Assembly: GCA_022822085.1 (NCBI GenBank)
Contig: JAJECK010000036.1
Coordinates: forward strand, 1 to 64,000
DNA from: Candidatus Poribacteria bacterium
GTDB lineage: Bacteria > Poribacteria > WGA-4E > WGA-3G
DNA length: 64,000 nucleotides
Direction: 5' to 3'
Shown here piece after piece: positions 2,579 through 30,834 of the stretch. The notes beneath the pieces are model-generated. The model did not search any database. It was not told the DNA's origin and saw nothing but the letters and a program-made list of their open reading frames with translations. Numbering within the stretch: position 1 is the stretch's first letter; each line of letters begins with the position of its first letter. Made by a program: the position numbers and the translations under genes.

Positions 2579-2693
2579 ATAAAGATAAAAAAATAAATTA
2601 GGTAATGTAGCGAGGTTAGGAAACCTCGCCAGCAGGAGTACAACTGTCCTCGCCCAGAAGGAAAATTACCCAATTAATAAGTTAATCTTCATT
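2579..2693. repeat. MITE-like element B, copy 1
   Basis: This is a ~115-bp non-coding element with imperfect terminal inverted repeats: an ATAAAGATAAA-type left end and a TTAATCTTCAT right end. An internal palindrome CGAGGTT-agga-AACCTCG and the inner pair GGTAAT/ATTACC are present. A second copy with the same plan lies at 4874-4989, inserted in another element. No coding capacity. Boundaries are approximate because the left end is divergent. Confidence 0.6.
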
Positions 2694-2729: not shown

Positions 2730-2750
2730 AAAAAAATATTTCGATCCTTT

Positions 2751-2975
2751 CTTTAGTCCCGTCCGGACGCAATGTTTATAGAAGACGAATACATCCCATC
2801 TCTTCAGTCCCGTAGGGTCGATATGTTTATAGATAAACTTCATTCAAACCCTCTTTAGTCCCGTCCGGACGATATGTGTATTCCAACGACATATTATAAA
2901 CATATCGTCCCTATGGGACTAAAGAGAGGCGGTGACAGGATTTTCTATAGACATTCCGTCCGGACGGGACTGAAG
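2751..2975. repeat. Phased cluster of five ~31-bp REP-like palindromic repeats
   Basis: Consensus CTTTAGTCCCGTNNGGAC followed by GATATGTTTATAG. Forward copies start at 2751, 2802 and 2853, exactly 51 bp apart. Two inverted copies end at 2924 and 2975, again 51 bp apart. Each contains a GTCC...GGAC palindrome that varies between a CCCGTAGGG and a CCCGTCCGGAC form. The ~20-bp sequences between copies are unrelated to each other. Orientation flips and core variation argue against CRISPR and for a REP/BIME-like dispersed repeat. A sixth copy is at 3235. Confidence 0.75.
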
Positions 2976-3488
2976 ACATCCCTAAAGCGGATCTATCTGC
3001 TTAAGTTGACAGTTATGAGGACCGCTTGCACTCATCCCAACATCCGATAATTCATTCATAAAAAATAACATTTGTGATAAAATAACGAAAACTAAATAAC
3101 CCTGGCGATGTCATTAATCATCTTGACATCAGTATAGGAATTTGGTAATATGTAATAGGTCCTGAACGCTAATTTAACGACTTGTGCCAGTTAACAATAT
3201 GTTTATTTTCTATTCACACATATTTAATTTAACATATAAACATATCGTCCCTACGGGACTAAAGAACGGACAATCTAATGAGAAGTATTTACAAAACAAA
3301 TCATTAATGTTGAATAATGTTTAACATATAGTTATTTAGCACAACTCGTTAATTTACAAATTACATTGAGTTTTATTGAAATTCTATAAGACCATAGTCT
3401 ATCTATATAAAGTTCACAATTTCTACACTGTTTCTTTTTTGTACAGATTATTAAATTTTAGTGATTGATTATAGCAACGGAGTACATT
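2976..3488. other. AT-rich intergenic stretch with one isolated repeat copy
   Basis: No supported gene in about 500 bases. The only recognisable item is a sixth inverted copy of the REP-like repeat at 3235-3265, with the TAC-loop form of the palindrome. The promoter of the following GTPase gene presumably lies here, but no good -35/-10 pair was identified. Confidence 0.6.
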
Positions 3489-4805: not shown

Positions 4806-5074
4806 TTATAGTTAAATCTATAATTACCTTTACATTAGCGAGGTTAGGAAGAAATCAACGGTATGAATGCCATATGAAGATTAAGAAAATAAATCGGTAA
4901 TTTGGCGAGGTTAGGAAACCTCGCCAGCGGCGGAGGGAAACCTGCTTCAGACAGATAAAAAATTACCGAATTAATAAATTAATCTTCATTAGGCATTCCC
5001 CGCCTCGCCAGCGGGGGATGGTGTGGGGATCGTTGTTAATTGAAATGTGAACATATTTTCGGATTTTACTATAA
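4806..5074. repeat. MITE-like element A, copy 1, interrupted by element B
   Basis: The left end (4806, TTATAGTTAAATCTATAATT) and right end (TTTTACTATAA, ending 5074) match the uninterrupted copy at 30684-30834. The two copies share ~55 bp after the left end and ~60 bp before the right end. Here the element is split at 4873/4990 by MITE-like element B, which sits in the apical loop of A's internal hairpin (GAATGCC...GGCATTC). The right end lies 3 bp before the ATG of the next gene. Confidence 0.75.
4874..4989. repeat. MITE-like element B, copy 2, nested in element A
   Basis: About 116 bp with ~30-bp imperfect terminal inverted repeats. They begin with 11 identical bases (ATGAAGATTAA against TTAATCTTCAT) and share CGGTAATTT further in. 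The centre carries the same GCGAGGTTAGGAAACCTCGCC palindrome as copy 1. No open frame. A target-site duplication could not be resolved. Confidence 0.7.
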
Positions 5075-16839: not shown

Positions 16840-18762
16840 TTGAAATTGGCACAATTTCTCATTCTAACGTGCTTTATTGTTTTAAGCTTATTTCTCACAC
16901 CTGCCTCTGCTGAGGATCCGTCTCAATGGCATTTACCTAAAGGTGTCAAGGCGCGTCTTGGGAAAGGAAATATAGAACAAATTAAGTTTTCACCAGATGG
17001 GAATCGGTTTGCTGTCGCGACAGGTATTGGCGTATGGGTCTACGATGCACAAACATATCAAGAAGTCTACCTACTCACTGGACATACTGAGCGTGTTACT
17101 TCGGTCGCGTATTCACCGGATGGTCAAACGCTTGCCAGTGGAAGTATGGATAAGTCTATTCGTTTTTGGAATGCAAGCACGGGGGAACACATGAAAACGC
17201 TGGGTGGACAACCAGAGAATATCTATATTCATTCTATTGCATTCAGTTCAGACGGTCATTTGCTCGTAAGTGCGGGGCAGGATGGATATATTCAGATATG
17301 GAATGTCCAAACTGGTAAATCCAAATCAATCTTCAAAGGGGATGAAGGGGTGATGACGCATGTTACATTCAGTCCTGATGATAAGACACTTGCCGCCTGT
17401 GGAATAGGTGATACAATTTGGCTATGGGATATCCAAACTACACAACTTATGGCAACACTTAAGCGTCAGACCAGTATTGGCACTTTTGCGTATAGTCCTG
17501 ATGGAAAAACACTAGCAAATGCATGTGGTAACACAATTCAGTTATGGGATACTGCCTCTGGACGGCCTGTAAAAACTTTGACAGGACATACGCGGTTAGT
17601 AGGACCTATAGCGTATAGTCCTGATGGAAAAACACTATCGAGTGGGAGTAATGACAAAACCATTTGTTTGTGGAATACTGAAAGTGGACAGCTCAAGAAA
17701 ACTCTTGAAGGGCATACTGAGGATATAAATACCGTAGATTTCAGTTCAGATGGTCGCACGCTTGTGAGTGGTAGTGATGACGGGACAATCCGCTTATGGA
17801 ATTCACTGTCTGGGAAACAAAAAGGGACTATTAAAGGGCATACCAATTCTACGAAAGAAGTTGTTTTTAGTCCAGATGGTCGCACGCTTGCAAGTTTTTC
17901 TACTTATGGTAGTCAAGTGATTTGGTTGTGGGATGCTGTTTCCAAACAACGTTTGGCTGTTATTCGTGAGCATGAGCATATAATTTCTTTTATTAATACT
18001 ATTACGTTCAGTCCTGATGGCAGGACACTTGCGAGTGCGAACAGTATAGGAAAAATATACTTATGGGATGCAATCACTGGACAAGAAAAACTGAATTTTG
18101 AAGATCCTTCAACGATTGAGCTTGTTCACGGTGACTACCGAAGTGCTAGTGCCTCCATACATTATTCTTCCATCGCATTTAGTCCTGATGGGCAAACGCT
18201 TGCAAGTGGTAGTGCCGATGGAACAATTCGCTTATGGAATGTTTTGGATGGGAAACTTCAGGCAACTCTTGAAGGGCATACAGATTTCGTAAATTCCATT
18301 ATATTCAGTCCAGACGGAAGTAAATTTGCTAGTGGAAGTTCGGATAAAACTATTATGTTATGGGCATCAGAAACCCGTTTTGGAAAAAACTTGCGTCTTG
18401 CCACGCTTAAAGGACATACAGACATTATTTACGACTTAACATTCGAGCCTGATGGGCAGACGCTCGTAAGTGGTAGTGCTGATAGCACCATTCACTTATG
18501 GGATGTGAAAACTGGGAAACATAAAGCTACGCTCAGTGGGCATACAGGTGGAGTCACTTCTGTTGCATATTCTCCAGATAAAAGTATACTTGTGAGTGGC
18601 AGTTGGGATAAAACGATTCGCTTGTGGGATGCCAATACAGGAAAACATCAAAGAACGCTCACTGGACGTATGCGTGTTGTTCATTCACTATCATTCAGTC
18701 CTGATGGCACACTCGCCAGTGGAAGTTCGGAAGGTGCGATTCTTCTGTGGGAAATTAGATAA
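16840..18762 (+). CDS. Secreted WD40 beta-propeller protein
   Basis: 640 aa with a TTG start preceded by AAGGAGG. Signal peptide ends at about residue 24 (PASA). The rest is a run of some thirteen WD40 repeats with the bacterial consensus FSPDG..LASGS.D.TIRLWD...G. That length suggests two propellers. No enzymatic or anchoring domain and no C-terminal sorting signal. Such proteins are common export products in this lineage and are presumed interaction platforms. Confidence 0.88.
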   Translation: MKLAQFLILTCFIVLSLFLTPASAEDPSQWHLPKGVKARLGKGNIEQIKFSPDGNRFAVATGIGVWVYDAQTYQEVYLLTGHTERVTSVAYSPDGQTLASGSMDKSIRFWNASTGEHMKTLGGQPENIYIHSIAFSSDGHLLVSAGQDGYIQIWNVQTGKSKSIFKGDEGVMTHVTFSPDDKTLAACGIGDTIWLWDIQTTQLMATLKRQTSIGTFAYSPDGKTLANACGNTIQLWDTASGRPVKTLTGHTRLVGPIAYSPDGKTLSSGSNDKTICLWNTESGQLKKTLEGHTEDINTVDFSSDGRTLVSGSDDGTIRLWNSLSGKQKGTIKGHTNSTKEVVFSPDGRTLASFSTYGSQVIWLWDAVSKQRLAVIREHEHIISFINTITFSPDGRTLASANSIGKIYLWDAITGQEKLNFEDPSTIELVHGDYRSASASIHYSSIAFSPDGQTLASGSADGTIRLWNVLDGKLQATLEGHTDFVNSIIFSPDGSKFASGSSDKTIMLWASETRFGKNLRLATLKGHTDIIYDLTFEPDGQTLVSGSADSTIHLWDVKTGKHKATLSGHTGGVTSVAYSPDKSILVSGSWDKTIRLWDANTGKHQRTLTGRMRVVHSLSFSPDGTLASGSSEGAILLWEIR

Positions 18763-18872
18763 TACCCCATGTCATAGAAATTTAAGTGATTAAGGTCCTT
18801 TTTCGGATTAGCCACAATGTAGAATCATAAACGCTGCGTCCGTGTGGAATGATCTATTGGGGCAATGTGTTC

Positions 18873-18907
18873 AATCCTGAAAATCCTATAATCCTGGTTC
18901 AAACAAT
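18873..18907. repeat. Short AATCCTG decamer-type dispersed repeat
   Basis: The sequence contains AATCCTGAAA, ATCCTAT and AATCCTGGTTC in succession, then AAACAA. This resembles a dispersed intergenic repeat built of AATCCTG(T/A)AA units that I recall from several bacterial phyla. It sits in the 170-base gap before the oxidoreductase gene. Identification is by memory of the pattern only. Confidence 0.4.
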
Positions 18908-18934
18908 GAATTAACTAAAATTGTTGGAAATATT

Positions 18935-19945
18935 ATGTCAATAACATCTGAAGTTCGTATTGCCTTCTACGGATGCGGTAATTTCGCAAAAAATAACAGA
19001 ATTCCGAACCTTTTGGAATTGGATTCCGTTACTATAATTGCAGCATGTGACAGTAACGTCCAAGCGGCAAAAGAAACTGCGGATCGTTTCAACATTCCAC
19101 GGGTATATCAAAATGGTCATGAAATGCTTAACACCGACAATTTTGACGTGTTATACTCTATCGTGCCAGCGTATGTGCGGACTGATGTTGAAGTCATTGC
19201 AGCGGAAAAAGGTGTCCATATTTTCAGTGAAAAACCGCAGGCGATTACAATGCAGGTGGCAAATCGGATTGACAAAGCAATTCAACAAGCAGGGGTTATC
19301 AGCACTGTTGGCTTTCGTGAACGTTATCGTCCAATATTTCAAAAAGCACGTGAATTTTTGATGGATAAAACTATCGTCCATGTGCGTTTTGTGAGTTATG
19401 GAGGGTTACCAGCCAAAGCAGATGATTCACCAAAAACGTGGTGGGCAGATATGAACAAATCGGGTGGACGCGCACTTGATTGGGGTGTTCATGCTACTGA
19501 CTATAGCCGATTTATGACAGGATTGAACGTCTCTAAAGCACAAGCATTCTATTGCGAAAGGTCTATATATAACACGCCGTTGTCATGTATATTCAATTTC
19601 TACTTGGATAACGGTGCTACCATGACGCTCAACTTTATCTCTGCGGGTGCAAGTCCCAAAGATGAACCGTGGTTTACCGTTTTCTTTGAAGGTGGCTATC
19701 TCGCCATTTACCGTTACGATAGAATTGAGGTAAACGGTGAATTATTCTATCAAGCAGAAGAATTTAATCCGTGGTTAGAACAGGATAGAACCTTTATCCG
19801 TGCTGTTCAGGCTGGAGATGTCAGTATTTTACAAAGTGATTATCACGATGGACTATTCTCATTAGCACCTGTTTTGGCAGGTTGGGAATCAGCACGCAAC
19901 AACGGAGAATGTATAGATATAGATACATTCATGGATATTACTTAA
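18935..19945 (+). CDS. Gfo/Idh/MocA-family oxidoreductase
   Basis: 336 aa. The N-terminal Rossmann fold has FYGCGNFAKNNRIPNLLE. The family motif EKP appears in FSEKPQAITMQ, and the catalytic region GGRALDWGVHATDYSRFM carries the Asp/His typical of the second domain. The family oxidises or reduces sugars, inositols and related compounds with NAD(P). Substrate undetermined. It precedes a small unknown protein and an aminotransferase, with short gaps that suggest a three-gene unit. Confidence 0.88.
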   Translation: MSITSEVRIAFYGCGNFAKNNRIPNLLELDSVTIIAACDSNVQAAKETADRFNIPRVYQNGHEMLNTDNFDVLYSIVPAYVRTDVEVIAAEKGVHIFSEKPQAITMQVANRIDKAIQQAGVISTVGFRERYRPIFQKAREFLMDKTIVHVRFVSYGGLPAKADDSPKTWWADMNKSGGRALDWGVHATDYSRFMTGLNVSKAQAFYCERSIYNTPLSCIFNFYLDNGATMTLNFISAGASPKDEPWFTVFFEGGYLAIYRYDRIEVNGELFYQAEEFNPWLEQDRTFIRAVQAGDVSILQSDYHDGLFSLAPVLAGWESARNNGECIDIDTFMDIT

Positions 19946-30683: not shown

Positions 30684-30834
30684 TTATAGTAAAAACTATA
30701 ATTACCTTTACATTAGCGAGGTTAGGATGAAATCAACGGTATGAATGCCATTTAGGCATTCACCGCCTCGCCAGCGTGAGTGTGGGGGACTGTTGTTCAT
30801 TGAAATGTGAACATATTTTCGGATTTTACTATAA
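30684..30834. repeat. MITE-like element A, copy 2, complete
   Basis: 151 bp with perfect 11-bp terminal inverted repeats (TTATAGTAAAA at the left, TTTTACTATAA at the right). Internal arms GCGAGG/CCTCGC and GAATGCC/GGCATTC would fold the whole element into one hairpin. There is no open frame. It is near-identical over its shared parts to the interrupted copy at 4806-5074. Ends show TA but no longer target duplication was resolved. Confidence 0.8.

Follow-up and report, generated by a model that had tools for sequence, protein, structure and literature searches.

A small inverted-repeat element of Candidatus Poribacteria and its probable IS630-family parent reside in the loops of unrelated DNA hairpins

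A split element in a four-level nest

The DNA studied here comes from Candidatus Poribacteria, a sponge-symbiont bacterium with a genome of 5.63 Mb. The own-genome loci comprise 61 contiguous stretches, 1.24 Mb in total, and include the 64,000-nucleotide stretch that we call the window. At 4806–5074 of the window, an inverted-repeat element, A, is split by a second, B (Table 1). An earlier note on this DNA had described A as interrupted by an element of about 116 bp, and direct comparison agrees: the two pieces (4806–4873 and 4989/4990–5074) correspond to positions 1–68 and 69–151 of the 151-bp copy at 30684–30834, and B is 116 bp long. Neither A nor B is protein-coding. The two bases that adjoin B on each side correspond to the outer positions of the ATTTA loop in the intact copy; the central T is absent from the split copy. 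The note had placed B in the loop of A's own GAATGCC/GGCATTC hairpin; B does lie in that loop, but the hairpin is an inserted module, X, rather than a part of A. X is 35 nt long (GGGGAATGCCTAAATGGCATTCATACCGTTGATTT) and occupies the loop of the GCGAGG/CCTCGC core of A, so that the nest has four levels, running from A through the REP core and X to B. In the likely order of events, A would have entered at a TA, bearing the REP core with X in its loop, and B would have entered the ATTTA loop of X later, with loss of the central T.

Table 1 Features of the locus and of reference copies in the window
Feature	Position	Strand	Basis or remark
Left part of A (TTATAGT end)	4806–4873	+	96% match to positions 1–68 of intact A
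Right part of A (ACTATAA end)	4990–5074	+	88% match to positions 69–151 of intact A
Element B, putative 116-bp MITE (ATGAAGATTAA ... TTAATCTTCAT)	4874–4989	+	Ends common to the 1,240-bp IS630-family IS
Left terminal inverted repeat of B	4874–4901	+	End conserved, with exact relatives among Poribacteria
Right terminal inverted repeat of B	4962–4989	+	Relatives keep it as ATTACCGAATTAATAAATTAATCTTCAT
X target hairpin, 5' arm GAATGCC and kept loop bases AT (4872–4873)	4865–4873	+	Sequence; retained-bases rule
Kept loop bases TA (4990–4991) and X target hairpin, 3' arm GGCATTC	4990–4998	+	Sequence; ATTTA loop in 30684–30834
GCGAGG arm, REP core of A	4838–4843	+	Partner CCTCGC at 5003–5008, X in between; RAYT gene at L181 flanked by the same hairpin
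REP hairpin GGCGAGGTTAGGAAACCTCGCC within B	4904–4925	+	Read from sequence
Intact A, X loop ATTTA uninterrupted (pre-insertion state)	30684–30834	+	
Second B copy, diverged	2579–2692	+	Loop of hairpin C, arms 2568–2576 and 2695–2703, kept bases GT/TT

Other mobile hairpins around A and B

The note had pointed to a GCGAGG...CCTCGC core common to A and B. The core is present in both, holding X in A and uninterrupted inside B, but the reason is a common REP and not kinship. Arrays of GGCGAGG/CCTCGCC lie on both sides of a RAYT gene (Y1 transposase, 159-aa ORF) at L181:1100–2000, about 18300–19200 of G000:C138. Because its arrays flank a Y1-transposase gene on both sides, the core hairpin is a REP and no proof that A and B are related; membership of a REP/RAYT system extends to the shared core only. 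At L179 (G000:C20) and L180 (G000:C135), two other Y1 transposase genes have a different hairpin repeat at their flanks, in which GAAAGGTGTATAG follows GCCCC/GGGGC; this looks like another family of mobile hairpins.

X also occurs in the loop of the D hairpin (GTCCC-GTA-GGGAC) and in other places. The X modules of the own genome (for example at L151:13225) have no terminal inverted repeats, lie in the loops of REP, D and other hairpins and are sometimes in tandem. A cluster of D hairpins (TTTAGTCCCGTAGGGACGATATGTTTATAG), similar to CGTC-tagged REPs, occupies 2750–3260 of the window, with no transposase linked to them here. A itself, for which 64 matching pieces were found in its own genome and 47 distinct copies were examined, is a MITE with TA as its insertion site. 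This use of TA is seen because an A-type element inside a B terminal repeat (L167:2223–2336), where the nesting is reversed, has duplicated TA. Among the fetched loci, there was no convincing candidate for an autonomous element with A ends.

B is a dispersed element with conserved ends

The terminal inverted repeat of B is ATGAAGATTAA, and about 155 copies of each end are present in the genome. A pattern built on the end matched the 5.63-Mb genome 155 times in forward and 158 times in reverse orientation, compared with 0 and 0 for the reversed control pattern. The note had reported B on its own at position 2579, and a diverged copy is indeed found there in a different hairpin, CCGCAAACT-GT-B-TT-AGTTTGCGG. 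In a scan of 84,980 species genomes, the matches listed for the exact 28-mer of the B end came only from Candidatus Poribacteria MAGs, and relatives of B are present in 41 of 60 related genomes. The centre of the element is variable: at L102 and L114, in relatives, it is swapped for other hairpins with the ends unchanged. One B copy (L125:15413–15605) carries the REP core in tandem. We also considered B as a protein-inserting element like the Rickettsia RPEs, and dropped this idea on finding no preference in reading-frame openness or in length modulo 3.

B-type elements lie in hairpin loops

We examined 159 distinct B-type elements, including the candidate autonomous parent described below (55 from the own genome and 104 from relatives), calling a hairpin when inverted-repeat arms of 5 bp or more directly flanked the element. 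Hairpin flanks were found for 126 elements (79%), 46 of 55 in the own genome and 80 of 104 in relatives, whereas random positions were hairpin-flanked in 1.6% of cases. When the flanks were read 12 or 16 bp further out, the numbers fell to 5 and 3 of 159. As an internal control, the same analysis of A in the same genome placed 2 of 47 copies in hairpins, and such flanks are therefore not a general property of the inverted-repeat elements of this genome. About 21% of the B-type elements have no detectable flanking hairpin, and some of these are rearranged or truncated. These figures lend good support to the structure-guided targeting that the note had suggested.

Exactly two unpaired bases separate the arm from the element on each side in 94 of the 126 hairpin-flanked elements, and at 87 of these 94 sites the inner base is the same on both sides. 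At a minority of sites, the palindrome is perfect and runs right up to the ends of the element (geometry 0,0). The arms of the target hairpins are unrelated, with 37 distinct 6-mers that reduce to 17 after similar ones are merged. In all 17, the base on the 5' side of the loop-closing pair is a pyrimidine (background, 58/116). The targets include repeated hairpins, about ten that were seen once and one inside a gene; the hairpins at L119:11831, L131:13705, L160:11380, L192:6497 and L249:1288 lie outside any repeat family recognized here.

Target duplication follows loop length

The one insertion with an orthologous empty site is at L131, where a B copy interrupts a 95-aa gene. Over the insertion point, the intact homologues of related genomes can be aligned with no gap, as can a paralogue, and exactly one base is duplicated, at AAATCTCT-GAC-AGAGATTT. 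A similar search for L119:11831 found no conserved intergenic sequence. Uninterrupted and occupied hairpins were also compared family by family; a dot marks the position of the element. Triloops gain one duplicated base (GTA to GT·TA in D, AAC to AA·AC in C and ACA to AC·CA in the REP), and pentaloops of X lose their middle base (ATTTA to AT·TA, as in the window, and ATTAA to AT·AA). Tetraloops appear to duplicate none (AGGA to AG·GA, GGGA to GG·GA); the triloops AGA and GGA would give the same flanks, and the four-base case is less secure than those of three and five because in some families the two origins cannot be told apart by their flanks. A two-base centre, TA, gives TA·TA (L141).

As read from these comparisons, the rule in the dominant class is that each side retains two bases of the loop at any loop length n, from which the predicted duplication is 4 − n. 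We prefer this two-bases-per-side rule to a constant duplication of 1 bp at the centre of the dyad, as the X pentaloops lose a base. GG·AA, predicted from the common C loop GGAA, was not seen in the hairpin-family comparison, and to explain perfect palindromes such as TT·AA, either a loop of four bases or a subsequent correction is required.

A candidate autonomous parent

When B ends were sought further apart in the fetched loci, a 1,240-bp element with B ends and one long ORF was found in a relative (L194:1501–2740). That search gave this one element and no convincing long B-ended element in the own-genome stretches. The own genome does hold one full-length copy of this IS, 88% identical, with B ends on both sides (C14:43851–45090, G000:C14). 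This copy occupies the loop of an X module, which in turn lies within a D hairpin. Six of eight full-size IS copies lie in hairpin loops.

The terminal inverted repeats of the IS match at 26 of 28 positions. Its transposase has matches to Pfam DDE_3 (E=1.4e-20) and to HTH families, its plasmid relatives, at 26–28% identity, are annotated as IS630, and the three catalytic acidic residues (D, D, E) are conserved, including in the own copy. A profile search of the PDB with the transposase found no meaningful relative, and the AlphaFold model (mean pLDDT 52) was unusable. The IS thus has the DDE_3-type transposase with conserved D, D and E of IS630 and Tc1/mariner elements, and at 1,240 bp, with one ORF and terminal inverted repeats, it falls within their usual build of about 1.0–1.3 kb. 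Insertion is not confined to TA with duplication of TA; the targets are loops of many sequences, among which the TA centre at L141 is a single case, with a 1-bp duplication at triloops, and for this reason we class the IS as an IS630 variant and not as a plain member. B has no transposase gene and has ends identical to those of an autonomous IS of the same genome, as expected of a MITE. It departs from IS200/IS605 elements, which have subterminal hairpins, no terminal inverted repeats, no duplication and a Y1 enzyme, in having terminal inverted repeats and the 1-bp duplication at triloops.

The genome-wide search proposed in the note has therefore yielded both a preference for hairpin loops and a transposase with matching terminal repeats. 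Single-strand targeting, also raised there, is not supported as written and is not needed, the enzyme being a DDE transposase and not an HUH enzyme. We consider it likely, with a probability of roughly 0.8, that B is a MITE of the 1,240-bp IS, the IS630-family DDE transposase of which inserts in hairpin loops of any sequence. Mobilization of B by this IS, and activity of any copy, are what we infer from sequence.

Alternative explanations

One simpler possibility, that B is a constant internal part of A, would account for their common GCGAGG/CCTCGC core, but most A copies are without B and most B copies lie outside A, which makes it next to impossible. A transposase that reads the sequence of particular REP-like repeats, as for ISPsy8 and IS1397, with the hairpins present by coincidence, would explain why many sites have CAAACT and REP-type arms, and the pyrimidine at the loop-closing pair does indicate some local preference. 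Set against the 17 mutually unrelated arms with their 37 distinct 6-mers, and against target hairpins that occur only once, one of them in a coding gene, we regard this explanation as unlikely.

It is very unlikely that B inserts anywhere and that the flanking repeats arise later, through quasi-palindrome correction in which the terminal repeats of B are lengthened by template switching. Such a process would yield the minority of perfect palindromes, but uninterrupted versions of most target hairpins, with identical arms, are found elsewhere, 94 of 126 cases still have two mismatched loop bases per side, and A, which is also an inverted-repeat element, is without such arms. Movement of B as single-stranded DNA by a Y1/RAYT enzyme, acting through the REP core and on single-stranded hairpin loops, draws on the presence within B of the REP found beside the RAYT gene at L181 and on the plausibility of hairpin loops as single-stranded targets. 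We judge it highly improbable: the ends of B match an IS with a DDE transposase, the L102 and L114 relatives keep these ends while replacing the REP core, and a loop-dependent target duplication does not fit HUH transposition. A partner for B had also been sought among the Y1 genes, and Y1 was found to go with REP-type hairpins and not with the ends of B.

Discussion

The IS and B resemble the IS630 family and Tc1/mariner elements in having DDE_3 with an N-terminal HTH, a single ORF, a length of about 1.2 kb, terminal inverted repeats, MITE derivatives and a 2-nt target register. ISY100 inserts almost exclusively at TA, which is duplicated (PMC2170065), whereas the target here is a hairpin loop of any sequence and the duplication varies with loop length (+1, 0 and −1, and 2 at a TA centre). 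The closest precedent is IS1272 of the IS1182 family, which also picks inverted repeats or stem-loops of unrelated sequence (PMC5678879). However, IS1272 replaces the stem-loop without duplication, and insertion into the loop is drawn in that paper only as a theoretical pathway; B and the IS retain both arms and sit in the loop, and the transposase families differ.

ISPsy8, like B, enters a REP hairpin at its symmetry axis, but with a 3-bp duplication and in that REP only (PMC1525189). The same holds more broadly for the REP-targeting ISs (ISPsy8, IS1397, IS621 and ISRm22), each of which uses one particular REP and a fixed duplication, unlike B and the IS; the families given for them are IS3, IS110, IS4, IS256 and IS5, and not IS630 (PMC1525189). 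REP dimers embedded in longer palindromes have been described in Anabaena, Thermomicrobium and Halothiobacillus (PMC3733652), and the hairpins of the core, C and D are similar to REPs that bear GTAG and CGTC tags. Those host palindromes have no link to a transposase, whereas here a transposon with terminal inverted repeats and its enzyme would do the inserting. In the open-access literature, we found no report of an IS630 or Tc1/mariner element with hairpin-loop targets.

A probable mechanism is that the palindrome would extrude as a small cruciform, or be captured as hairpins while the strands are apart. A transposase dimer would capture it with both strands folded and join one transposon end per loop, each transposon 3' end being joined to one strand two nucleotides 5' of the 3' arm of that hairpin. 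The 2-nt register would be that of Tc1/mariner enzymes at TA. Repair would then fill one base at a triloop, only seal the nicks at a tetraloop and trim one base at a pentaloop. Tc1/mariner enzymes are described as bending their target and flipping bases in it (PMC5481204), so that TA may become dispensable where the target is already folded. The arms of B targets, at 5–9 bp, are short for stable cruciform extrusion, which counts against the cruciform proposal. On balance, we lean towards a broader reading in which a Tc1/mariner-superfamily transposase would have moved from reading TA to reading hairpins, two nucleotides from the stem on each strand, with TA as the n=2 case and with mobile hairpins that serve as mutual landing sites, giving nested elements throughout the lineage.

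Target choice by DNA transposases is normally ascribed to sequence, flexibility or partner proteins. The targets described here suggest a transposase that recognizes shape and not sequence. They favour recognition of a target that is folded, and the rule that ties loop length to duplication can be read from the sequences. If this is true, these insertions would be a genomic record of palindromes forming hairpins in living cells. They would also provide a test system for structure-dependent DDE transposition, which has been proposed for IS1272, and would account for nested palindromes in bacterial genomes.
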